A stretch of 64,000 nucleotides of DNA from a virus. The stretch covers positions 1-64,000 of IMG/VR virus record IMGVR_UViG_3300021364_003460; one strand, given 5' to 3'. A program made the position numbers and the translations under genes. Numbering within the stretch: position 1 is the stretch's first letter; every line of letters starts with the position of its first letter. The notes under the pieces were generated by a model that saw nothing but the letters and a program-made list of their open reading frames with translations, did not search any database and had not been told where the DNA came from. Below, piece after piece: positions 520-63,841 of the stretch.

Positions 520-743
520 ATAATATAATTAGAAACTTAAAGTTTAAAATTGAAAAAAATGTGGAAACAATTAAAAATAATGTAGAGTACCAATGGGCTC
601 TAATCTATCTTGCTATTGAAGACTGGTATAACTTAATTGTAGCTGATCCTGAGACCATTCATTCTAAACCTTATACTTATGGTAACTTTTGGAATGGAGC
701 ATTAGACTTAGATATTAATGTCTACAATAGATTTCTTGATTAA
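516..743 (+). CDS. Hypothetical protein
   Basis: A 75-residue protein rich in Asn, Lys and aromatics, starting by ATGA overlap with the preceding small gene. It converges tail to tail with the minus-strand nuclease, overlapping it by 4 bases. No family is recognised. Confidence 0.6.
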   Translation: MNNIIRNLKFKIEKNVETIKNNVEYQWALIYLAIEDWYNLIVADPETIHSKPYTYGNFWNGALDLDINVYNRFLD

Positions 744-1714
744 CCTGCTTTCAACATCCTGTTAACAGGTAACACATCAGCAAACTTAGGAATAATCTCT
801 TTATCAAGATACCATTCTGAACCAGCCAACTTAAACTCTTCTCTGATGTCTTCTACTAATTGGTTGACTAAGTAATCTAAAGGAATAAACTCTACCTTAG
901 TCATCTGCTTTAGTAGTCTCTCAGCAGACTTAGTAATAGTAGGAGCAACAAAGTAAAAACGTATAGACTTCTTAGGGTACTTCAGTTTGGCTAATTCAAG
1001 ATAACCTTTGTCCCCTATAGCTTCTTTAATATGCTCAGTGGTAAGTGAAGTAGGTTTTAGCTCATATACTTTCAACTGTCTACCTTTAACTTCTACTAAG
1101 TCAAACCTTCTAGTTCTAGCAGTCTGGTCAGTAAATGAGTTAACTACTATCTGTTCTCTTTTGAAGTGACGGTTAGTGTAAGAAGAAAGAGAGCAGATAG
1201 CATCATGAATGGTTTCCTCATTCTGGTATTGTTGCTGGGTTTGCTGTAACTTAGCCTGCCTTCTTTCTTCTAATGAAATTACGTTAGATACAGTAGACTC
1301 AATAGCATTAGCTCCTAGAGTTTTAAACTCTTTAGCTTGTTGAGAATAGCCAGCTTGCAAGTAATGATATGCTCCTAACCAGTCTGTAATCCACAATGAG
1401 CAAGCTCTATTAAACTGAAAATGGTTAGCTTCAAACCAAGCTTTCTTAAACTTAGCTAACTGCTCACCTTTAATTAACTTAAACTCTCCAGGTAAACTAC
1501 ACTTACCATTAACCATATAGTTCTTAGAGAAGTCTACTGTATTTAATCCTTTAGCTCTAGCTAAATTAGAGACTACAAAGTGAGGTTGCTTACCTAAGAG
1601 AACATAGTGGATTTTATAAGTATTTAGCAGACTAATAAACTTATTGAGGATGTCTTGCTGAGTAGGTTTAATAGAGGGTTGGATAATGGATTTTAGTGAA
1701 GAGGTAGCCAACAT
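740..1714 (-). CDS. Putative PD-(D/E)XK-type nuclease
   Basis: A 324-residue protein. Its C-terminal third contains RRFDLVEVKGRQLKVYELKP, which fits the D...ExK core of PD-(D/E)XK nucleases: Asp in RFD, then a strand ending E-L-K. This is followed by a helix and a strand ending in FVAP, as in restriction-like folds. The N-terminal half is unassigned and has a Gln-rich linker around residues 150-165. It is one of few minus-strand genes in the window; the others are two polymerase-like genes and tail-type genes. A role in recombination or host DNA breakdown is inferred from fold only. Confidence 0.55.
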   Translation of the reverse strand: MLATSSLKSIIQPSIKPTQQDILNKFISLLNTYKIHYVLLGKQPHFVVSNLARAKGLNTVDFSKNYMVNGKCSLPGEFKLIKGEQLAKFKKAWFEANHFQFNRACSLWITDWLGAYHYLQAGYSQQAKEFKTLGANAIESTVSNVISLEERRQAKLQQTQQQYQNEETIHDAICSLSSYTNRHFKREQIVVNSFTDQTARTRRFDLVEVKGRQLKVYELKPTSLTTEHIKEAIGDKGYLELAKLKYPKKSIRFYFVAPTITKSAERLLKQMTKVEFIPLDYLVNQLVEDIREEFKLAGSEWYLDKEIIPKFADVLPVNRMLKAG

Positions 1715-24148: not shown

Positions 24149-25648
24149 TTATAAAAATGGTTTTTCTTCTAATATGGCATACTTCAAACCTGACTCTTTT
24201 CTAGCATAATCAATAGCTTCTTCAGGTATTTTGCCTATAACTATTAAGCCATCATGCTGATTGTTTAAACAAGTAAAATTGTATTGTTTACTAACTACTG
24301 TTAAGTGGTGAATAAACGCAGCTTCTCCCCCTTGAAGTAAAAAAGCACAAAGTTTTCTTTTAAACTTGACTAAATCTTTCCACTTACCATTATCAGTTTT
24401 AAAATCACTAATACATAAAGTCATTCCAGTTCTGTTAACTAAATACTGATTACCATGCTTGTTAACAGCAGTTATAGGGATATAATCATTAATTAACCAC
24501 TCTTTCCATTTATCAAGACTTTTAATTAAGGGTTGTACTACCTCATAAAATCTAAAGTAGTATTTTAAAGCTAACTCTTCATCACCTTTAGCCTCCTGTA
24601 GTAAATAGTTTAATATAGAAATATCTTCAGAACACATTTCTTTATTTACTTTAGTAGGTAAATAAGCATTCATTACTAAAGATAGAAAGCAGCTTTTCCA
24701 ACAATCTATTGAGATATTTACAGCCTTAGCGTAATCAGACTTGGATCTACTTAAATAAGTGTGCAGCCAAAAAGAGTCTATATTGGCAAACTCAAACCAT
24801 TGAATTAAACCATATACTTGACTTGATTTAAGATCATAGTTTCTAATTCCAGGTATGTTACTAAAAGCTACTGCTTTCATTTCTCTAGTACAACTTTGCA
24901 TTCCGCCTCATATTTCTGATATTCTTCCTGACATTTGCACTTCATAGCTAGGATGATATTCTATTAGCCCTTTTTCTAATAACTTAATATCTGTTTGCCT
25001 TAAGTTATCATAACAAGATTTATTATTTATATATCTATAATTTTCTTTACTATTTTTACCTGACCATACTGCGTCCACATATAATCCCACAAGATGATCA
25101 GTAACAGCAGAGTCATTAATTATACAACTTTCTATAGATAAAATTGAATCCTTAATTAACTTAGGAATATTCTTTACAGTATTATCCTTTTCTATAGTAA
25201 ACTTATGTCTTTTGAATACTTTCATTTTATGAGTAGTCATTAAATTGTAATACTCACAGTCAACAAAGTCTTTAGTATGATGAGGAAATTCATCTAATAT
25301 TTTTTGAGCTATTTGAAGATTTACTCTAAATTCTCTACTGAGTCCTCTCAGTTTAGAGTAGTCTTGCTCTACTCCATCTATAACACCAATAACTTTAACT
25401 TCAATTAGATTATCTTCTTTAAGTTTTTCCCAATTGGGTTTCAATCTGCCCCACTCTTTCTGCATTAATTTAGATCCAACTGGAACCCAACCTTCCTCTT
25501 CTCTTTTAATAGTATGAAGTGTACCAAAGAGAACATGAACAAAGAATTCTTTAGTTGATTTATCATAGTTTTTAAGTAGTTCTAAATGAACGTAATTATT
25601 GACTACTTTTGGAACTCTAAAAGAGTTGATAATATATGATTTAGACAT
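24149..25648 (-). pseudogene. Compact family A polymerase-like gene with one in-frame TGA
   Basis: The minus strand reads 246 codons from ATG 25648, then TGA at 24910-24908, then 252 codons in the same frame to 24149. Motifs span the stop: SGR just before it (PolA TGR-type), then YDLKSSQVYG (motif A Asp), a Lys-containing helix WKSCFLSLVMNA (motif B), and NQHDGLIV (motif C). From GR to the motif A Asp there are 29 codons, exactly as in the intact paralog at 60759-62234. Total is 499 codons against 491. No exonuclease domain is seen. It may be a recent nonsense mutation, UGA readthrough, two-piece expression (ATG at 24901) or a sequencing error. Confidence 0.7.
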
Positions 25649-25685
25649 TATAATTATTATAGATAGTATAATATATGTTTTATAA

Positions 25686-25716
25686 AGAGAGCTACTGAAC
25701 CCAGCTCTCTATTTTA
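25686..25716. terminator. Bidirectional-looking terminator hairpin
   Basis: AGAGAGCT (25686-25693) with AGCTCTCT (25703-25710), then ATTTTAAT. It lies between the divergent polymerase-like gene and 25772, so it may be a leader attenuator instead. Confidence 0.55.
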
Positions 25717-25771
25717 ATAAGTATATAAATTTAATTATACCATTTTGTAATCAAAGAATTAAGGAGGTTAC

Positions 25772-40828: not shown

Positions 40829-43800
40829 ATGCAGACATTACAAGTAAATACTTTTAAAGCTTACTTTGACTTGCTCTCTCCTAAGTATGTAGATTGGGAA
40901 TTTTATAGTAAATATTTAGACAAAGAGCCTCCTTTTGGTGAATTAGGAGTAATAGTATTTTTAAGAACTTACAGTAGATTTATTGAACAATTAGGTAGAA
41001 GAGAATACTGGAGAGAAGTATGTTTAAGAGTCGTTGAGTACAGCCTGTCTTTAGATAAAGTAACTCCAGTTGAATTAAAAAAAGAAGAAGCTAAAAAGTT
41101 ATTTGATATGATGTTTAATCTTAGAGGATTTCCTGCTGGAAGGACTCTATGGATTGGCAACACTAAGATTACTGAAACAAATGGAACAGCAAATTTTAAC
41201 TGTTCTGCTGCTACTACAGATAGTATTTCTAAGTTTGCAGAATGTTTTTATATGTTACTAGTAGGTGCAGGATATGGCTTTAGTGTAGAAGACAAATACA
41301 TTAGTAACCTGCCCACTTTTTATCCTGGTAAAACTTTAGTCAATAAAGAGTATAACTACAACAAATACTTAAAAGTAGATGATACAGAGATTGAGTTTTA
41401 TAAAGATAATAAATTTCTGTCTTCAGTGGTTTATACAGAAAAGTCTTTATGTATAGAAGAAGATAATAAGTATTTATCTGTACCAGAAGACTGCAATAAA
41501 GTTAATATTCTGGTAGGAGACAGCCGTGTTGGTTGGGTTAACACTCTAAGACTTCTACTTACTTTACATACTTATTCAAATATAAAAGTTGTTGAAGTAG
41601 ATTATGATTATGTTAGACCAGAAGGTGCAATCTTAAAAACATTTGGAGGCAGGTCTAGTGGTCACACTGCTCTAGAGACTTTACTAAATAGAGTTGTAGA
41701 AATTATAAATGAGTTATCTAAACCTGGAAAATTAAGTAGCGTTCAATGTTTAGATATTAAAAATTCTATTGGTATAGCTGTAGTAGTTGGTGGAGTACGT
41801 AGGTCAAGTGAGTTAGTATTAGGAGATTTATTTGACACTAATTTTATTAATTCTAAAAAAGACTTGTGGAGTGATGAAAGTTTAGCTAATAAAAGAGCTA
41901 CTAGAGTTATGAGTAATAACTCAGTAACCTTATATGAAAACCCTGGTTTAGAATACTTTAAACAATTAATGGAAAGTGTTAGAACATCAGGTGAACCAGG
42001 AGTATATAGCATAGGTAACGCTCAAAAAAGAGCAGCTAACAGAAAACTTACCAACCCTTGCTTTACTGGTAGTATGAAACTTCTTACTAGTGAAGGTTAT
42101 GTTGAATTTAAAGAACTAGAAGATAAAGAAGTAGAAGTAATTAATAAAGAAGGTAATATTACTAAAAGTAAAGTTTGGTCTTCTGGAATTAAAGAGTGCA
42201 TTGAATTAAGACTTTCTAATAAAGAGACTCTACAATGCACTCCTGATCATATATGGTTAACAAATGAAGGAGAAATACAAGCTAAAGATTTAAAGAATAA
42301 ACAATTAGTACCTTTTCTAAAAGAACCTGATTTAGATATTAATTATACAAGATATGGTTTTATTCAGGGAGATGGCACTTTAAATAGACTTACTTCAGTT
42401 ATACACAAAGGGTTGGAAGTAAACATAGGATATAAAGATGGAGACATTTATTCTTTATTTGAAGGTTTAAATTATACAAATAAGAGTTATAGAGTTATTT
42501 ATTTAAATGACTCTAAAGACCTAGAGGTGATTAAATCTTTAGGATATCAAGCAGTTAAATTACCTCAAAGAACTTTACCAGATAAATATCCATCTTTCTC
42601 TTTCAAAGAGAAAGCTTCCTTTTTAAAAGGTTGCTATTCAGCAAATGGTTCTGTTCTTAGCTGTGGTAGAGTCACTTATAAAGCAACTTGTAAAGAATTA
42701 TTAGAACAAATTCAAGAATCTTTATATTTAGACTTTGGAATTGAATCTTATATAACTACTAATAAGTCTAAAGAAGTGCAGTTTAGTAATGGTGTTTATA
42801 CCTGTAGAGAAAGTTATGATTTAAATGTAAATAAGTTTACTGATAAAGTTAACTTCTTTAATGAAATTGGTTTTGTTCAAAGATATAAAGTTGAATTATT
42901 AGCTAAACACTTATTAAAATCTGCACCTTATATAACTTCTATTAAAAATATTGGTGAACATAAAGTTTATGATTTTACTGAACCTGAAACTCATTGGGGT
43001 GTAGTAAATCGCTTTATAGCTCATAATTGCGGTGAAATCCTCTTAGACGACAGAGGAGTGTGCAACTTAACTGAAGCTAATGTATTAGCTCATGTTAAAG
43101 AAGATAACACTTTTGATTGGGAAGTTTGGAAAGATACTATTACTTGGGTGACTAGAATGGGATCTAGAATAACCTTAGTTGATATGTGGCATCCTAAATG
43201 GCAAGAAACTCAGCAAAGAGATAGGTTACTTGGAGTATCAATGACAGGTATAGTAGAAGCTTTTGATGCTCTTAATTGGTCAGAAGAAGACATTACTTAC
43301 TTTTATAAAAAGACTCAAAGTATTGTTGATCTTGTTGCAGATAACTATCATAACTATCTAGGTATTCCAAAAAGTTTACTTAAAACTACTATCAAACCCA
43401 GTGGTTCATTGTCGCAATTGCCTACAGTTTCATCTGGTATACATAGACCTTATGCGCCTTATTACTTAAGAAGAATTAGAGTTAGTAAAACAGATCCTTT
43501 AGCTAAAACACTATATGATTTAGGATTAATTCCTGTTCCAGAAAACAGTCAAGGTGATGACTTGTTTGGAGAATACTGTAACACTTGGGTATTTACTTTC
43601 CCAGTTAAAACTAAAGCTAAATTAAATTCAATTGATGAACCAGCTTTAGTTCAGTTAGAAAGATATAAACAAGTAATGCAGCATTATGTTCAACACAACT
43701 GTTCTATTACTGTATCTGTTGCTGAACATGAATGGGAAGAAGTAGCTCAATGGTTGTATGAAAATTATGATTACTATATTGGAATAGCATTCTTGCCTAG

Positions 43801-44008
43801 ATTTGATCCATTAGATAAAGATGGGAAGGTTCTATATCCTAACTTACCTTATCAAACTTCAAATGAAAAAGAATACTTAGAACTTAAAGATAATACTCCC
43901 AATTTAACAGAAGGAGAATTAATTGAATTGTTAACTAAGTATGAAAAACAATATGAAGAATTAGATTTAGGTTCTGATTGTGCCTCTGGAGCTTGCCCCG
44001 TGCGCTGA
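40829..44008 (+). CDS. nrdJ: Class II (B12-dependent) ribonucleotide reductase with intein
   Basis: A 1059-codon gene encoding a 736-residue reductase plus a 323-residue intein. Extein motifs: LRGFPAGRTLW, NFNCSAATTD (first catalytic Cys), GGVRRSSELVLGD, TNP/CGEILL split by the intein, GVCNLTEANV, TTIKPSGSLSQLPTVSSG, and a C-terminal SDCASGACPVR Cys pair for re-reduction. Length and single-chain layout fit monomeric adenosylcobalamin-dependent NTP reductases. It supplies dNTPs aerobically or anaerobically. It follows the PduO-like gene and a promoter-like box. Confidence 0.92.
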   Translation: MQTLQVNTFKAYFDLLSPKYVDWEFYSKYLDKEPPFGELGVIVFLRTYSRFIEQLGRREYWREVCLRVVEYSLSLDKVTPVELKKEEAKKLFDMMFNLRGFPAGRTLWIGNTKITETNGTANFNCSAATTDSISKFAECFYMLLVGAGYGFSVEDKYISNLPTFYPGKTLVNKEYNYNKYLKVDDTEIEFYKDNKFLSSVVYTEKSLCIEEDNKYLSVPEDCNKVNILVGDSRVGWVNTLRLLLTLHTYSNIKVVEVDYDYVRPEGAILKTFGGRSSGHTALETLLNRVVEIINELSKPGKLSSVQCLDIKNSIGIAVVVGGVRRSSELVLGDLFDTNFINSKKDLWSDESLANKRATRVMSNNSVTLYENPGLEYFKQLMESVRTSGEPGVYSIGNAQKRAANRKLTNPCFTGSMKLLTSEGYVEFKELEDKEVEVINKEGNITKSKVWSSGIKECIELRLSNKETLQCTPDHIWLTNEGEIQAKDLKNKQLVPFLKEPDLDINYTRYGFIQGDGTLNRLTSVIHKGLEVNIGYKDGDIYSLFEGLNYTNKSYRVIYLNDSKDLEVIKSLGYQAVKLPQRTLPDKYPSFSFKEKASFLKGCYSANGSVLSCGRVTYKATCKELLEQIQESLYLDFGIESYITTNKSKEVQFSNGVYTCRESYDLNVNKFTDKVNFFNEIGFVQRYKVELLAKHLLKSAPYITSIKNIGEHKVYDFTEPETHWGVVNRFIAHNCGEILLDDRGVCNLTEANVLAHVKEDNTFDWEVWKDTITWVTRMGSRITLVDMWHPKWQETQQRDRLLGVSMTGIVEAFDALNWSEEDITYFYKKTQSIVDLVADNYHNYLGIPKSLLKTTIKPSGSLSQLPTVSSGIHRPYAPYYLRRIRVSKTDPLAKTLYDLGLIPVPENSQGDDLFGEYCNTWVFTFPVKTKAKLNSIDEPALVQLERYKQVMQHYVQHNCSITVSVAEHEWEEVAQWLYENYDYYIGIAFLPRFDPLDKDGKVLYPNLPYQTSNEKEYLELKDNTPNLTEGELIELLTKYEKQYEELDLGSDCASGACPVR
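42059..43027 (+). other. Intein in nrdJ (codons 411-733)
   Basis: Inserted between Pro and Cys of the active-site NPCGE motif. Block A begins CFTGSMKLLTSEGYVEF; block B is TPDHIWLTNEG; the end is GVVNRFIAHN before Cys734 (43028-43030). All splice residues (Cys1, the block B His, His-Asn and Cys+1) are present. Between the blocks, YGFIQGDGT and LKGCYSANGSV resemble the two LAGLIDADG motifs. The second has Asn for the usual acidic residue, so homing activity may be reduced. Confidence 0.9.
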
Positions 44009-47342: not shown

Positions 47343-47362
47343 AAATTTAACTTGTTAAATTT
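47343..47362. promoter_or_regulatory. Palindromic operator-like site
   Basis: AAATTTAAC-TT-GTTAAATTT, a perfect 9-bp inverted repeat. It lies between the divergent tail fibre gene and hen1, where a dimeric regulator could act on either. Confidence 0.4.
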
Positions 47363-47390
47363 ACACTTTTGTAAACAAAGCAATAATCAC

Positions 47391-48647
47391 ATGGCATTTT
47401 TAAGTATTGAAAGTAGCAATCCAAAGTTCAGTTACATTATTAATAAGAATCCTAGTAACCCTGCTATAGCTAAACCTATTAGGCAAGGTACTGCTATTGG
47501 GTGGTTTGCTAATGAACAGAAGTATTGTGTTAGGTTTGTAGACCCTCCTCAAAAGATGTCTTACAACAAAGCTGAGTATGAATACCTTGATGTGACAGCT
47601 TTGAGTTCACCAGCAGCTTACAGTAATCTTATTAGAGATTTCTTTAATGGATTGTTAAAAAAAGAAAGTGAGTTTGATGTAATTGAGCATGACTTTCATA
47701 AAATAGAATTAGGATTTATTAAATGTAGTAAAAGAAACCTTGAACACTTTACTAAGTTCTTTCCACAAGTTACCTATATAGAACTAGCTAAAAATACTTA
47801 TCAAGTAACCTTTTTTGATAAAAAATTAAGTTCTCTTAGAAAGCTACTTCATTTAACTAATCTATTCTGTATCTTCATGATGGTAGCTGATGATGACTTC
47901 TATGTTGACATTAATGAAGATGTTATCAAAAAGTATCTAGTTTCATTACAAGTTATAAAAGTTCCATACTATATAGCTAACCTATTCAAAATACAGTTTC
48001 TCAAAACTAAAGCTCTGTTTACTAAGTTTGCACCTACCTTACAAGAAGCCTGCACTGAAGAAGTTACCTTTGAGTTTGGTACTGTATTAGATGCTAGAAA
48101 GAGGTGGATTGAAAGTAACCTTTCTTTTAAGAACAATATAGTAGACATTGGTGCAGGAGAAGACTTTAACTACGCTTACCTGTCTAGAAACATTAAAGGC
48201 ATCTATTACCCAGTAGATAGAGATGAAGAAGCTAGAAAGTCTATTACTAGAAAGATTGAGTATAAGAAGTTTGATAAGGTAGCTGAACCTTTAGCTGACT
48301 GGAATGAAATTAAGGAACTATTAGATAGTGACACTGAAGTTATTTTAACTGAGATACTTGAACATAATAGTTTGAAGGAAGCTAGAGCTTTGTTAACAGA
48401 GGTCTTAAGTCATCCACAAGTTAAACGTTTACTTATAACCTTACCTTGGATGCCTTTCAACAAATACTATTTATTAGATACAGAGTTTAGGCATGATGAC
48501 CACAAATGGGAAGCTGATAATGAAGTATTAACTAAACTTTATTATGTTGTCAGATCAGAAAAGAAATATAAAGTTGCAGAAGCTTTTATAGGGGATTTAA
48601 TTTATGGAATATCTCCAACAGTAGGAATAATTATTGAGAAGGTGTAA
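47391..48647 (+). CDS. hen1: Hen1-type RNA 3'-terminal 2'-O-methyltransferase
   Basis: A 418-residue protein. N-terminal 1-210 is the region that in bacterial Hen1 contacts and activates the Pnkp ligase. The C-terminal methyltransferase has DIGAGEDFN (SAM loop, 252-260), TEILEH (Glu321, Glu324, His325) and EFRHDDHKWE (His368, His371), the Mn2+-binding set unique to Hen1. The enzyme methylates the 2'-OH of an RNA 3' end so that the repaired junction resists a second cut. ATG 47391 is used; the TTG at 47352 adds residues over the palindrome. Pnkp follows after 4 bases. Confidence 0.88.
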   Translation: MAFLSIESSNPKFSYIINKNPSNPAIAKPIRQGTAIGWFANEQKYCVRFVDPPQKMSYNKAEYEYLDVTALSSPAAYSNLIRDFFNGLLKKESEFDVIEHDFHKIELGFIKCSKRNLEHFTKFFPQVTYIELAKNTYQVTFFDKKLSSLRKLLHLTNLFCIFMMVADDDFYVDINEDVIKKYLVSLQVIKVPYYIANLFKIQFLKTKALFTKFAPTLQEACTEEVTFEFGTVLDARKRWIESNLSFKNNIVDIGAGEDFNYAYLSRNIKGIYYPVDRDEEARKSITRKIEYKKFDKVAEPLADWNEIKELLDSDTEVILTEILEHNSLKEARALLTEVLSHPQVKRLLITLPWMPFNKYYLLDTEFRHDDHKWEADNEVLTKLYYVVRSEKKYKVAEAFIGDLIYGISPTVGIIIEKV

Positions 48648-48651
48648 TTAC

Positions 48652-51291
48652 ATGACAATTAATATTCAAATACCCATGCACACTGTAGTCACTATGGTGG
48701 CTCCTTCATGCTCAGGTAAATCTCTACTAGTAGAAACATTAGTAAATCAATTAGAAAGAACTTATCAATTAGGTTTAAGTAAACTCAACTTCCATGTAAT
48801 CTCTTCAGATGATATACGTAGAGAGCTTATTGGGGAAGACTTACATAAACATGACAATGAAATGCTTTATGCTTCTGGGGCTGCATTTGATTTACTATTT
48901 TGTAAGTTGAGAAACCTACTTCAGTTTCCTCTTAGTTTAAAGAATGCAGTAGTGTTTGTAGATACTACTGGTTTAAGTAAAGAGTTTAGAGACCAGGTAA
49001 ATAAAGTAGCTGAGAGATATGGTTATAATACAGCAGCCATTGTATTAGACTACAAAGAATATCAAGACTACTTTAAGTTAGCTGAAAATGATGAGAGAGT
49101 AGATAAGTCAGTTGTTAGCAATCATGTAAAAAGACTCAGAACTAAAACTCTACCTCAAATGAGGAGGAAAGACTACTCAGCAGGTATCTTTAAAATTAAA
49201 CAGCTAGATTACCTTTGGCACAACGTTGAAATTCAGTTAACTAATGCAAATGAATATATCAACTGTAGGCTACCTATTAAAACTGCTGAAGGGGAAAGGA
49301 TAGAGTATACTTGTTTAGGGGATAGTCATGGTTGTTATGATGAGGTAATACAAGTATTAACTAAAGCTGGGTTTACTATTGAAGAGGGGTTAATTAAAAA
49401 TCCTGGCAACAAAAGAATTGTTTGTTTAGATGACTACATTGATAAAGGAAGTAAGCAAAAAGAGCTTATTCAATTCTTCTATAACAACCAAGATTACATT
49501 TACCATGTTTTAGCTAATCATGAGGATTTTGTTGTAAGGTACTTTACTGGAGATATCAAACCAGATAAAGACTCTTTACAATACTTTGATTCTATTAGCT
49601 GGCTTAAAGATACTCCTGAGTTGGAAGAATTAAAATGGCTACATTCTCAAGCTAAACCCTTCTTAATTCACCCTGACTTTATCTGTACTCACTCTCCTTG
49701 TAAACTAAAACACTTAGGTAAACTAGATAAGGAATCTAAGAGAGCTCAACTTAAGCATAGACTACCTTCTATCTATGGTAAAGACTTTGATACTGAGGAA
49801 GAATACAAAAATGTACTAGAAACTAATTTAAATTGGTTAAAGGAGCAAGCTGTAGCTAACTTTCCTTTTATCTTCTCTGGTCATCTTTCATTCAGTAATG
49901 TTGTCAGACTAGGTAGCCAAGTAATGTTAGATACTGGAGCAGTCTATGGGAATAAACTTACCGCTTGTACTGTAAAAGGAAGAAAGCTAGACTTTACTCA
50001 AGTTCAAGCTAAAGAAGCATACTACCCTATTAAGTATCTAACAACTATCTTTGATACTAAAGATAAAGTTAACTTAAATAGTCTAGACTCTAGGGAACAG
50101 AGAAGAATTAAGAGAGCTTTAGGAGAGAAACCAATCAACTGGCTATCAGGAACTATGTCACCTAGTGCTAGTAATGATTCTCAGTTAGAACCTATTGAAA
50201 CAGCATTAGAATACTATAAATCTAAAGGTGTTACTGACCTAGTAATGCAATGTAAAGAAATGGGCAGTAATGCTTCCTTCTATTGGCTGCCTAATCCAGA
50301 AGACTGCTACATGGTTAGTAGAAATGGCTATCTTATTAATCAAGTAGACATTAAACCTATAGTAGATAAGTTCCACTCTCTAATTGCAGAAAGGTTTCCT
50401 GATGCTACTCAAGTAATAGTTTTTGGAGAATTGAAACCTTGGTCTGCTTTAGGTAAAGGTTTAATTGACCACCACTTCATCCCTATCTACTCAGGGATGA
50501 AAACTGAGTTAGAGTTCTCTAAAACTAATGGTTTTGATACAGCTTTCTCTAGTTTGTTATCTCAAGCTAAAGAAGAGTTTGCTCATGACAGAGGTAAGTT
50601 ATCTAAAGCTGAGTTAAGGGCTAAGTATGGAGATGCTAAAGTAGAGTGGTATAACAGTGTACTACAAGCTGCTAAGTATGTTAATCCTGTAGATATTGAT
50701 TTAGCTGAGGTAGAAGCCTACAAGGAAGAGTTAGATGGGTATACTCAAGATAGTGAGTTAGATTTCCAACCTTTCCAAGTATTAAAGATTGAAAGAGGTG
50801 ATAAAGTAGAAGTGTTACCTTTTGATAACTATGAAGGGTTTAAACTATTTAACTCTAATCAAATTATAAAATTAGATTTAAATTCTAAGGAAGGTTATGA
50901 TACTGAAGTTTTGTATGCTAGATATGTGTACAAAAACTGGGTATCTGCTCCACAAGACTTCTTTGGTTATACTAAGTTAGAAGGTGTAGTTATTAAACCT
51001 TTAGACCCTAAGCTGACTAATGTAGCTCCTTATATTAAAGTAAGAAATCCTCAGTACCTTAAGTTAGTGTATGGGCCAACTTACAATTTAGAACCTACCT
51101 ATAGTAAACTAGTTAAATCTAAAAGGATTAGTAGAAAGATTAAGTCTTCCATTAATGAATGGCAGCTAGGTTTAGAAATGTTAGGTATTCATTCTAGTCA
51201 GATGACATTAGATAACTCTAAAGCAGTAGACTTAATGATTAAGTTTATTGCAGAAGAAAGGAAAGTGGAAGTGTTAGATCCAAGGTTGTAA
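48652..51291 (+). CDS. pnkp: Three-domain RNA repair enzyme Pnkp (kinase-phosphatase-ligase)
   Basis: An 879-residue protein, matching bacterial Pnkp length and order. Kinase about 10-170: APSCSGKS P-loop (Lys23) and SSDDIRREL. Metallophosphatase about 215-440: CLGDSHG, CLDDYIDKG, ANHED, SGHLS. Adenylyltransferase (ligase) about 495-879: VMQCKEMGSNAS with nucleophile Lys535 in K-x-x-G-S. It heals 5'-OH and 2',3'-cyclic phosphate ends, and ligates with Hen1. Both genes are adjacent, as in bacterial RNA repair operons. In a phage it probably counters host anticodon nucleases (inference). Walker A differs from GxxGxGK at its first Gly. Confidence 0.92.
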   Translation: MTINIQIPMHTVVTMVAPSCSGKSLLVETLVNQLERTYQLGLSKLNFHVISSDDIRRELIGEDLHKHDNEMLYASGAAFDLLFCKLRNLLQFPLSLKNAVVFVDTTGLSKEFRDQVNKVAERYGYNTAAIVLDYKEYQDYFKLAENDERVDKSVVSNHVKRLRTKTLPQMRRKDYSAGIFKIKQLDYLWHNVEIQLTNANEYINCRLPIKTAEGERIEYTCLGDSHGCYDEVIQVLTKAGFTIEEGLIKNPGNKRIVCLDDYIDKGSKQKELIQFFYNNQDYIYHVLANHEDFVVRYFTGDIKPDKDSLQYFDSISWLKDTPELEELKWLHSQAKPFLIHPDFICTHSPCKLKHLGKLDKESKRAQLKHRLPSIYGKDFDTEEEYKNVLETNLNWLKEQAVANFPFIFSGHLSFSNVVRLGSQVMLDTGAVYGNKLTACTVKGRKLDFTQVQAKEAYYPIKYLTTIFDTKDKVNLNSLDSREQRRIKRALGEKPINWLSGTMSPSASNDSQLEPIETALEYYKSKGVTDLVMQCKEMGSNASFYWLPNPEDCYMVSRNGYLINQVDIKPIVDKFHSLIAERFPDATQVIVFGELKPWSALGKGLIDHHFIPIYSGMKTELEFSKTNGFDTAFSSLLSQAKEEFAHDRGKLSKAELRAKYGDAKVEWYNSVLQAAKYVNPVDIDLAEVEAYKEELDGYTQDSELDFQPFQVLKIERGDKVEVLPFDNYEGFKLFNSNQIIKLDLNSKEGYDTEVLYARYVYKNWVSAPQDFFGYTKLEGVVIKPLDPKLTNVAPYIKVRNPQYLKLVYGPTYNLEPTYSKLVKSKRISRKIKSSINEWQLGLEMLGIHSSQMTLDNSKAVDLMIKFIAEERKVEVLDPRL

Positions 51292-60758: not shown

Positions 60759-62234
60759 CTAAGTTATAAGACCTCCCTCTAAGTCTGTAGTTATCCTAAG
60801 TAAGGAAGCTTGCGCCCTAACAGCCTCCTTCATTTTACTCTCTAAAGACTTTACTAAATTACCTTTATTGTAGTGTACTGTAAATCCATCATGCTGAAAG
60901 AGAGTAATAGACATATATTTACTATTCTCTTTAGCTATATCAAAGACTGGCTTAAGTAATACCATCTCCATTAGTTGAGCCTCCTGAGCTAACAAAGACT
61001 TAACACAGTCATGTCTTTCTTTATCAGTATTACCTTCTACTAAAAGTTCTCTACCATCATGCCAGTCTAAAGTTAACTTACCCTCTTCTAAGACTTTAGT
61101 TATCTTAGCTTCTCTGGCTTTATAAAGAGCTGCCATAATGGGACGGGCTAACACATCAGCACCCTTCTTGGCTATCTTTAGTTTCTTAAATCCTTTAGTC
61201 AGTCTAGCTAATAAACATGACTTCTTCATACCATAAATAAGAGAATAAAGACTTTCTTTAAGTAAACCTTTGAGAGCATCAAACCAACCAGGGTTATTTA
61301 ATTTATTGTAAGTATAGTTAATTCCTAAATGAGTAAAGAGGGAAGTCCAGATATGGTTGCCTGATTGTAAGAATTCTTGTACTTCTGTTATGTTCCATAG
61401 TTTAGCTACTATAGCCAACTGACTACTAACTAAATCATACTCATACCAACCCTTACAGATGGCTTTTCTTAGCTTTCTACAAAGAAGTAGTATACTTTCC
61501 CCATGAGGAAATATCCTTACTGTTCTACCAGCACTGCTAGGTTTGTAGTAAGGCTTAGGATTCTCATATATAGATAGAAGTATCTTAGTTTCTATTTCTC
61601 TTAAAGTAGCGTCCTTAGTAGGCTTGAGTTTAGGGTTAGTTTCATTAGACTCTAATCTAGCCAGCACACTAGACACATGGTCAAGGTTTTCTTTAACTTT
61701 GCTAGTAAAAAGATTAGAAGGTAAATTATTTAAGTATTCTAATAAAGGTAGTGCCTCTACAGAAGCATTATCATAGAATCTCTTAACTTCCTCTTCTAAC
61801 TCCTTTCTAATTTCACCAGGAGTATTCTTATTAGCTTTCTTTAAAGTAATAAAGTTGATCATGTTTGTACTGTTACCTATAGGAAAATAACCTAACTCTT
61901 TTTGAATATAATACTGTACTTCTAAAGCAAAGTAAGGAATAGCTGACCTAGCTTTACCTTCTTCATAACTGTACTCTTTAATAGCTAACTTTAAACCTGT
62001 TTCTTCTTGAAATTTAGTTAGATAGTTGCCTGCATTGTAGCGGTGATTTTTAAGTTTCTTATAGCAACCTTCACAACTAGCTAAAGTATGTCTATCTAAA
62101 ACAGTATAGTTTTCTTTGTTCTTACTAAAGATAAGTTTGAGAACTAGCTTTCTGTAACCAGCATTATCTTTAAGAACTGGGTAATGTTCAAGAAGAGAGT
62201 TAGTTAACTCTTGAGATATTAATCTTTTTATCAT
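60759..62234 (-). CDS. Compact family A DNA polymerase-like protein
   Basis: A 491-residue protein. SSAGRTVRIFP resembles the PolA T-G-R-x-S-S...P-N segment. Then YEYDLVSSQLAIVAKL is motif A (Asp267), KESLYSLIYGM motif B (Lys326 and Tyr-Gly) and FQHDGFTVHY motif C (His448-Asp449). No 3'-5' exonuclease is seen. The N-terminal 230 residues, with a C-x-x-C (Cys54, Cys57), are unassigned. Order and spacing fit a minimal family A palm/fingers enzyme. Whether it makes DNA, RNA or primers is unknown. A paralog with an in-frame TGA lies at 24149-25648. Confidence 0.7.
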   Translation of the reverse strand: MIKRLISQELTNSLLEHYPVLKDNAGYRKLVLKLIFSKNKENYTVLDRHTLASCEGCYKKLKNHRYNAGNYLTKFQEETGLKLAIKEYSYEEGKARSAIPYFALEVQYYIQKELGYFPIGNSTNMINFITLKKANKNTPGEIRKELEEEVKRFYDNASVEALPLLEYLNNLPSNLFTSKVKENLDHVSSVLARLESNETNPKLKPTKDATLREIETKILLSIYENPKPYYKPSSAGRTVRIFPHGESILLLCRKLRKAICKGWYEYDLVSSQLAIVAKLWNITEVQEFLQSGNHIWTSLFTHLGINYTYNKLNNPGWFDALKGLLKESLYSLIYGMKKSCLLARLTKGFKKLKIAKKGADVLARPIMAALYKAREAKITKVLEEGKLTLDWHDGRELLVEGNTDKERHDCVKSLLAQEAQLMEMVLLKPVFDIAKENSKYMSITLFQHDGFTVHYNKGNLVKSLESKMKEAVRAQASLLRITTDLEGGLIT

Positions 62235-62291
62235 ATAATTAAAATATATATTGAGATTGGATTGAAATATATAAGTTAGACTTAGTAGTTA

Positions 62292-62328
62292 AAGAGGGAG
62301 TTATTAGAAGTAGCTGCCTCTATTTTAA
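62292..62328 (+). terminator. Terminator or attenuator hairpin
   Basis: AGAGG-G-AG (62293-62300) with CT-G-CCTCT (62314-62321), one mismatch, then ATTTTAA. It sits upstream of the RHH gene, in the divergent gap after the polymerase start, so it may be a leader element. Confidence 0.45.
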
Positions 62329-62361
62329 TGTATACATTTATAGTACCAAAAAGGGCTAGTT

Positions 62362-62513: not shown

Positions 62514-62744
62514 ATGACAACTTACATTGAAGTAGAATCAACCTTAGACTTGCATAATAAAGTAGATGAACTAATAGGAGACTTACCTATTGCTTGGTCT
62601 ACTGCTAACAGATTACAGTATCCCCATGCAGAAGTAACTTATGAAACTTCTTATATTAATGGACTTAAAAAAGCTAAAGTTAGATTAGTTAAAGATGTAT
62701 ATGATGAATCTAAAGTAGAGGAGTATGAGGTAACTTTAAAATGA
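62514..62744 (+). CDS. Hypothetical protein
   Basis: A 76-residue protein 2 bases after the RHH gene and overlapping cysS by ATGA. Beta-rich second half. Unassigned. Confidence 0.55.
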   Translation: MTTYIEVESTLDLHNKVDELIGDLPIAWSTANRLQYPHAEVTYETSYINGLKKAKVRLVKDVYDESKVEEYEVTLK

Positions 62745-63841
62745 TTAACCTTTACCTTAAAGACAGTTTAACCAACCAACTAAAACTGTTTACTCCTATT
62801 CAACCTAACCATGTAAACATATATGCTTGTGGAATAACCCCTTATGATTTCTCTCATATAGGTCATGCTAGATCAGCTATTACATGGGATATTTTAATCA
62901 GGTATTTAAAGTACCTTGGTTATTCAGTCAACTACATTAACAACGTAACTGACATAGATGACAAGATTATTGAGAAAGCAAAAGTTAATAATGCTCCTGC
63001 TTTAGAAGTTAGTGATTACTACTTTAAAGAATATCAGAAAGAGTTAGCAGCTTTAAATGTGATACCTGCTGATAACTACCCTAAAGTTAGTGAAAATATA
63101 CCTCATATTATTAAGTTTATTCAAGAGTTAATTGCTAAAGAGGCAGCTTATGTGGCAGGAGATGGAGTTTACTTTAACCTCAACTCAGCAGCTAACTACG
63201 GTAAATTATCTAACAGAGATAGTCAAAGTTGCAGCTATCAAGACTTTGCTTTATGGAAATTAACTAAAGATAATGGCTGGGATAGTCTTTGGGGTTATGG
63301 TAGACCCGGCTGGCATATTGAGTGTTCTACATTTATAAAAATTTATATAGGAGATACAGTAGATATACATTGTGGAGGTAGTGATTTAGTATTTCCACAT
63401 CATGAGAATGAAATAGCACAGTCAGAAACCTTAACTGGTAAACCTTTAGCAAACTATTGGTTACATAATGGTATGGTTAAAATTGATGGTAAAAAGATGT
63501 CTAAGTCATTAGGTAATACTATTACTATCAAAGATGTGTTAGCTAAATATCATCCTCACACTCTTAGAATGTTATTCCTACAAACTGGGTATCACAAACC
63601 AGTTAACATTACAGAAGAGTCTTTAAAGGCTGCTGAAAATGCTTATCTTAAATTAGAGAAATCTGCTAACTTATCTCATACTTATATACTATCTGAAGAA
63701 AATCCTTACCTTAAAAAGTTTGAAGAATATATGTCAGACGACTTAAATACAGCTAAGGTATCTGCACTAATGTTTAAGTTAGCTAAAGAAAAAAAGTATT
63801 CTATTTTAAAACAAATAATGAATTTAGTTGGATTACTATGA
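62741..63841 (+). CDS. cysS: Reduced cysteinyl-tRNA synthetase
   Basis: A 366-residue protein, against about 460 for bacterial CysRS. IYACGITPYDFSHIGHARSA has the first zinc Cys and HIGH; GWHIECSTF, then FPHHENEIAQSE, complete the zinc ligands (Cys, His, Glu). KKMSKSLGN is the KMSKS loop. It ends after a short DALR-type helical part (YMSDDLNTAKVS), without the C-terminal anticodon-recognition domain. The catalytic core looks intact, so Cys activation is likely. tRNA specificity may differ. Confidence 0.88.
   Translation: MINLYLKDSLTNQLKLFTPIQPNHVNIYACGITPYDFSHIGHARSAITWDILIRYLKYLGYSVNYINNVTDIDDKIIEKAKVNNAPALEVSDYYFKEYQKELAALNVIPADNYPKVSENIPHIIKFIQELIAKEAAYVAGDGVYFNLNSAANYGKLSNRDSQSCSYQDFALWKLTKDNGWDSLWGYGRPGWHIECSTFIKIYIGDTVDIHCGGSDLVFPHHENEIAQSETLTGKPLANYWLHNGMVKIDGKKMSKSLGNTITIKDVLAKYHPHTLRMLFLQTGYHKPVNITEESLKAAENAYLKLEKSANLSHTYILSEENPYLKKFEEYMSDDLNTAKVSALMFKLAKEKKYSILKQIMNLVGLL

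Follow-up and report, generated by a model that had tools for sequence, protein, structure and literature searches.

The window, i.e., the whole stretch of DNA analyzed here, comprises bases 1–64,000 of a 190,865-base virus record. On its minus strand, two adjacent open reading frames (ORFs) lie in the same frame and are parted only by a TGA codon at 24910–24908, and the sequence-only reading that first described them had both the arrangement and the coordinates right. The locus includes the following features:

24908–25648, minus strand: N-half ORF of 246 aa; it has a variable N-terminal part and contributes the thumb helices, the initial strands of the palm and the GR motif (R242)
24908–24910, minus strand: in-frame TGA, codon 247, at a column that holds Gly in the uninterrupted close homologs and Glu in Calothrix
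24906–24909, minus strand: Shine-Dalgarno-like GAGG, 4 nt ahead of the ATG at 24901 and overlapping the TGA
24149–24901, minus strand: C-half ORF, 250 aa if the ATG at 24901 is the start, with motif A (DLKSSQ, D272), the motif B Lys (K318) and motif C (H465-D466-G467)

The codons right after the TGA are GGC GGA ATG, and there is no intervening DNA at the site; with nothing inserted there, an intron or intein at this stop was rejected. That no sequence is missing, as had been claimed, holds as well, since alignments to uninterrupted homologs are gapless across the stop. The equal distance from the GR Arg to the motif A Asp in this protein (R242–D272) and the second polymerase-like protein of the window (R237–D267), 29 residues in each, was also confirmed; the spacing is again 29 in the cyanobacterial homolog L072 and about 26 in jumbo phages, so that it is no family constant. 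Against a profile of 10 relatives from which the window proteins were left out, the read-through product scores 87.6 bits, compared with 54.1 for the C-half and 19.8 for the N-half, whereas the highest score among 600 shuffles is 6.3. This dense genome contains 18 neighboring in-frame ORF pairs with a single-stop gap, and this pair is the only one joined by TGA. Judged from frame and alignments, the ORFs at 24908–25648 and 24149–24901 are one gene.

The polymerase identity given to the product at the outset is upheld by its fold and by the homolog alignments, even though Pfam PF00476 matches neither half nor the read-through. An AlphaFold2 model of the read-through, run together with relatives, reaches a pLDDT of about 80 over most of residues 160–480 (below 50 in a large part of residues 1–160), and Foldseek matches it to a family A DNA polymerase with an E-value of 1e-6. 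Over residues 147–492 the model shares the fold of family A polymerases (Z 14.5–18.7), including Pol theta (18.7), T7 DNA polymerase gp5 (17.4) and Klenow (16.2), and the protein also has the catalytic Asp pair, the motif B Lys and a GR...QN.P-like segment in common with them. The catalytic Asp residues of motifs A and C (D272 and D466) and K318 are invariant in the family alignments. In Pol I/Klenow, a steric-gate Glu lies five residues past the motif A Asp, and another Glu follows HD in motif C. Unlike these enzymes, with which identity is 10–15%, this family has DLKSSQ as motif A and HDG as motif C throughout, i.e., Q in place of the steric-gate Glu and Gly in place of the HDE Glu. Given that both Glu residues are absent family-wide, we do not call the protein a DNA-specific PolA; on the strength of the model, it would work like a family A polymerase. 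The TGA comes after the first palm strands and ahead of motif A.

The closest uninterrupted relatives are cyanobacterial. An ORF of Calothrix sp. NIES-4105 plasmid6 (AP018296.1), unannotated, 592 aa long and spanning the record start, matches the read-through with an E-value of 4e-73 without a gap at the stop, and the halves alone with E-values of 4e-22 (N-half) and 2e-45 (C-half). Relatives are present in 5 of 386 cyanobacterial-phylum genomes, three of them full length (44–47% identity), and no relative from these 386 genomes has an internal stop. The Calothrix ORF and the homologs L072–L074 share the motifs and full-length homology (33–47% identity, gapless at the stop site); in contrast to the phage gene, they are uninterrupted, and they lie on a plasmid or beside prophage-type genes. 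Indeed, the full-length homologs of three cyanobacterial genomes adjoin such genes, namely a terminase and an integrase (region L080), an integrase and an antirepressor (L078), and tail collar and tail fibre genes (L079). From these relatives, the host of the phage is probably a cyanobacterium. In the relatives, the protein is probably an accessory or plasmid-type replication polymerase.

More distant uninterrupted homologs occur in Vibrio (GR7B, GR11A), Erwinia, Dickeya and Yersinia jumbo phages. They have about 20–26% identity and are single ORFs, all annotated as ‘hypothetical protein’ and without known function, but share with the phage gene GR..GGGFQN, D..SSQ, the Lys and HDG. The same motifs recur in phrog_30690, whose profile matches residues 228–357 of the read-through (E 8.6e-5) and the GR7B homolog (E 3.1e-10). 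In IMG/VR, no closer relative was found with either half, the read-through, the paralog peptides or alignments A2 and A7; alignment A4 recovered the Erwinia/Dickeya-type group and nothing else. Two further observations concern this family. Plasmid unnamed7 of Synechocystis sp. B12 (L070:1869-3405) encodes a distant homolog that seems to be frameshifted ahead of motif C, its annotation listing separate products of 434 aa and 59 aa. A phrog_37791 gene is present at 743–1714 (minus strand) of the window, and another member of this phrog adjoins the polymerase homolog of prophage region L080.

The column of the stop is occupied by Gly in L072, L073, L074, L075, L076 and all sampled Erwinia-group jumbo phages, and by Glu in Calothrix, which indicates that the TGA is derived. 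Trp or Phe, proposed beforehand as the residues whose presence there would be informative, was not seen in the homologs, although the distant paralog, poorly aligned in this region, may place Phe near the site. A Gly column would fit a genome in which TGA encodes Gly (code 25), and a reassignment to Trp (code 4) can be considered along with it. Stop usage speaks strongly against either: in the whole record, TGA ends 44 of 235 ORFs (TAA 158, TAG 33) and thus behaves like TAA and TAG, and among the neighboring in-frame ORF pairs it joins no other. Furthermore, of the 31 ORFs that end with TGA and are at least 90 aa long, 30 run into the next stop no more than 26 codons later, this gene alone failing to do so, and the pattern of TGA-recoded phages, in which TGA rarely ends ORFs and often occurs inside them, is absent. 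Code 25 was rejected on these grounds, and we consider genome-wide reassignment practically negligible.

If this single TGA were read through often enough to matter, be it because the stop is naturally leaky or because the host supplies a suppressor tRNA, some full-length polymerase would result; the frame is open on both sides and every catalytic residue is kept. The 190,865-base record contains no tRNA gene detectable by ARAGORN, and no recoding element was recognized by Rfam. The site is a conserved Gly, rather than Trp or Cys, and TGA-G is not an especially leaky stop context. Because TGA is an ordinary stop genome-wide and there is no tRNA gene, recoding is excluded and phage-borne suppression unlikely; the same goes for a phage-borne selenocysteine tRNA, whereas a host tRNA is a possible source. 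Overall, we regard read-through as very improbable. The locus looks like a broken or two-piece gene rather than a product of an altered genetic code.

Neither half shows decay. Conserved positions are retained in 20 of 24 cases in the N-half and 61 of 69 in the C-half, about the same rate as in the uninterrupted relatives, which implies either a recent loss or the continued use of both halves; any loss of the gene would thus be recent. The missing motif B Tyr, present in jumbo phages, had raised a suspicion of decay that was rejected because cyanobacterial homologs have Met or Leu there. Alternatively, the real phage gene could be whole and the TGA a consensus or assembly error of one base in a metagenomic contig: the codon is one substitution away from sense codons used by the relatives at this column, no other damage is seen in 499 codons, and the locus comes from a sole contig, IMG/VR scans having found no second copy of it. 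A single contig cannot tell mutation from consensus error, which counts against certainty on a recent loss. Positive signs of such an error are lacking, however, and elsewhere in the record long ORFs of up to 3674 aa are uninterrupted; this explanation appears rather unlikely.

A more serious alternative, if still an unlikely one, is a functional split gene, in which ribosomes would terminate at the TGA and start anew at the ATG, six bases further on, via the overlapping GAGG, giving one chain with the thumb and first palm strands and another with the catalytic palm and fingers that reassemble into a working polymerase. The context is favorable to re-initiation, which weighs against a simple loss: an interior stop placed at random in this genome would have an in-frame ATG in the next three codons in 3.5% of cases, and one that also has a four-base Shine-Dalgarno core in only 0.24%, and the GAGG at spacing 4 is unique in that no other start codon of the composite frame has a core match as long as 4. 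The undecayed halves are as expected if both were made and used. However, L072 and L074 have Met at the position of the ATG, where others have Leu or Phe, and the codon therefore predates the stop. Since the context owes its existence to an ancestral Met and ancestral Gly-rich codons, the ATG after the stop, read earlier as a hint of split expression, is no evidence of an evolved start, and its combination with the Shine-Dalgarno sequence is weakened as proof of an evolved split. Moreover, none of the relatives is split at the same place, and parting the first palm strands from motif A would make for a demanding reassembly.

Polymerases in two pieces have precedents, and this phage itself offers a parallel. 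Its canonical PolA-type polymerase lies in two ORFs (record 68113–71461, L014:4113-7461) separated by about 870 bases that hold an antisense LAGLIDADG endonuclease; the break, between the QQI motif and motif A, affects the fold interval that the TGA interrupts, and no intron model of Rfam matches there. Split phage polymerases and reductases can work, according to PMC2988022, and the two chains of the split gp43 of phage 25 are reported to form a working polymerase. The 43A/43B fragments of gp43 in T4-related phages (PMC2988022, with reference to Petrov et al. 2010) are adjacent, as are the ORFs considered here, but belong to family B, are split by an insertion and are shown to be active, whereas here the protein is family A-like, the halves are parted by a single stop codon, and any joint activity is hypothetical. 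A literature search on split or stop-interrupted phage family A polymerases yielded nothing relevant.

Taken together, the ancestral frame with a derived stop, the polymerase fold, the absence of decay and the continued use of TGA as a stop point to a derived, probably recent point nonsense mutation in a non-replicative family A-like polymerase gene that is single-chain in its relatives, the reading that we favor with some reservation. It is followed in our ranking by split expression, consensus error and read-through, in that order. Of the three options offered initially, recent loss is thus the best supported, split expression is possible and ranks second, and read-through by recoding is not supported. 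Under the nonsense-mutation reading, the single-chain gene would have acquired a premature TGA at a near-invariant Gly in this phage lineage, through a recent point mutation, and the main product would be an inactive 246-aa N-fragment, with a C-fragment possibly re-initiated to an unspecified extent at the ATG six bases on. The TGA would be tolerated thanks to the phage's own PolA-type replicase, clamp, clamp loader, helicases and primase, together with the distant paralog. Indeed, the phage carries a complete set of these genes, including the canonical PolA-type polymerase with its exonuclease domain, which suggests that the polymerase-like gene is probably not the main replicase.

The paralog and a third gene of the record share with the interrupted gene a leader element:

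25686–25718, strand not assigned: leader hairpin, then ATTTTAAT on the plus strand (ATTAAAATAGAG on the minus strand)
25626–25654, plus strand: predicted sigma-70-type promoter (TTGATA-17-TATAAT) in antisense orientation, directed out of the start of the gene and into the hairpin of the leader
60759–62234, minus strand: distant paralog, uninterrupted, 491 aa, with a leader element at 62318–62329
62292–62329: the same leader element at the paralog, upstream of 62234
62211–62239, plus strand: antisense promoter-like site at the paralog
record 185754–187205 (L020:1754-3205), minus strand: Rep-like gene, 483 aa, homologs of which are carried by 66 plasmid records, most of them cyanobacterial
record about 187255–187286 (L020:3255-3286): the same leader element at the Rep-like gene, upstream of its start at 187205

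The term paralog, taken over from the sequence-only reading, is tentative for the product of 60759–62234, which scores 11.9 bits against the family profile and gives a poor fold model (pLDDT 41.6); a homolog of it is encoded on the Deinococcus plasmid pDEIPE01. ATTAAAATAGAG has two exact matches in the window (0.10 expected), upstream of the polymerase-like gene and of the paralog, and a third copy lies elsewhere in the record, upstream of the minus-strand 483-aa gene. On the plus strand, the element consists of the 3' arm of the hairpin followed by ATTTTAAT and is terminator-like. At both window loci, an 11/12 match to a sigma-70-type promoter on this strand overlaps the start codon, 55 and 81 nt ahead of the end of the hairpin, where the whole 190,865 bases contain 7 sites of at least 11/12; at the Rep-like gene, the scan gave the hairpin and no promoter.

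The residue pattern of the 483-aa protein, which has no profile match, suggests an archaeo-eukaryotic primase. Its homologs include a protein of pSYSG of Synechocystis 6803, a plasmid whose Rep protein was called unknown in a 2024 paper (PMC10899382). Identification of this gene (P0008) as CyRepA was rejected: among the matches listed, those in Synechocystis are on pSYSG, not pSYSA, and it was therefore not filed as CyRepA1. On pSYSA, the CyRepA1 replication locus is accompanied by the antisense asRNA1 (PMC9978351), and pSYSX has been described as ‘two Reps in one plasmid’ (PMC10899382). The phage loci resemble those of pSYSA and pSYSX in combining a replication-type gene with an upstream antisense transcript, predicted in the phage, and a hairpin, but differ in that the phage protein is polymerase-like, the RNA is predicted from sequence and the loci lie inside a 190-kb phage. 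By this analogy, the leader elements possibly represent plasmid copy-control loci with predicted antisense control RNAs; if so, copy-control replication loci in the style of plasmids would accompany a complete replisome in phages. The compound proposition, that two chains are separately translated by stop–start coupling and that the phage has several plasmid-type replication loci, each under a leader antisense RNA, would be improbable as a whole.

The stop codon is probably an ordinary nonsense change, and the polymerase-fold family is of more use. Jumbo phages, cyanobacterial prophage regions and plasmids have in common this unannotated family without the two Glu residues usual in DNA polymerases, and both its role and its preference for dNTP or rNTP substrates are testable.

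Several other genes of the window are worth recording. The ribonucleotide reductase gene at 40829–44008 contains an intein bearing a LAGLIDADG domain. A cysteinyl-tRNA-synthetase-like gene (62741–63841; PF01406, E 1.6e-111) is present in this record without tRNA genes. Finally, at 47352–51291, a gene with a Hen1 N-terminal domain lies beside a kinase-phosphatase-ligase (Pnkp) gene, and together they form an RNA repair pair of bacterial type, here in a phage.
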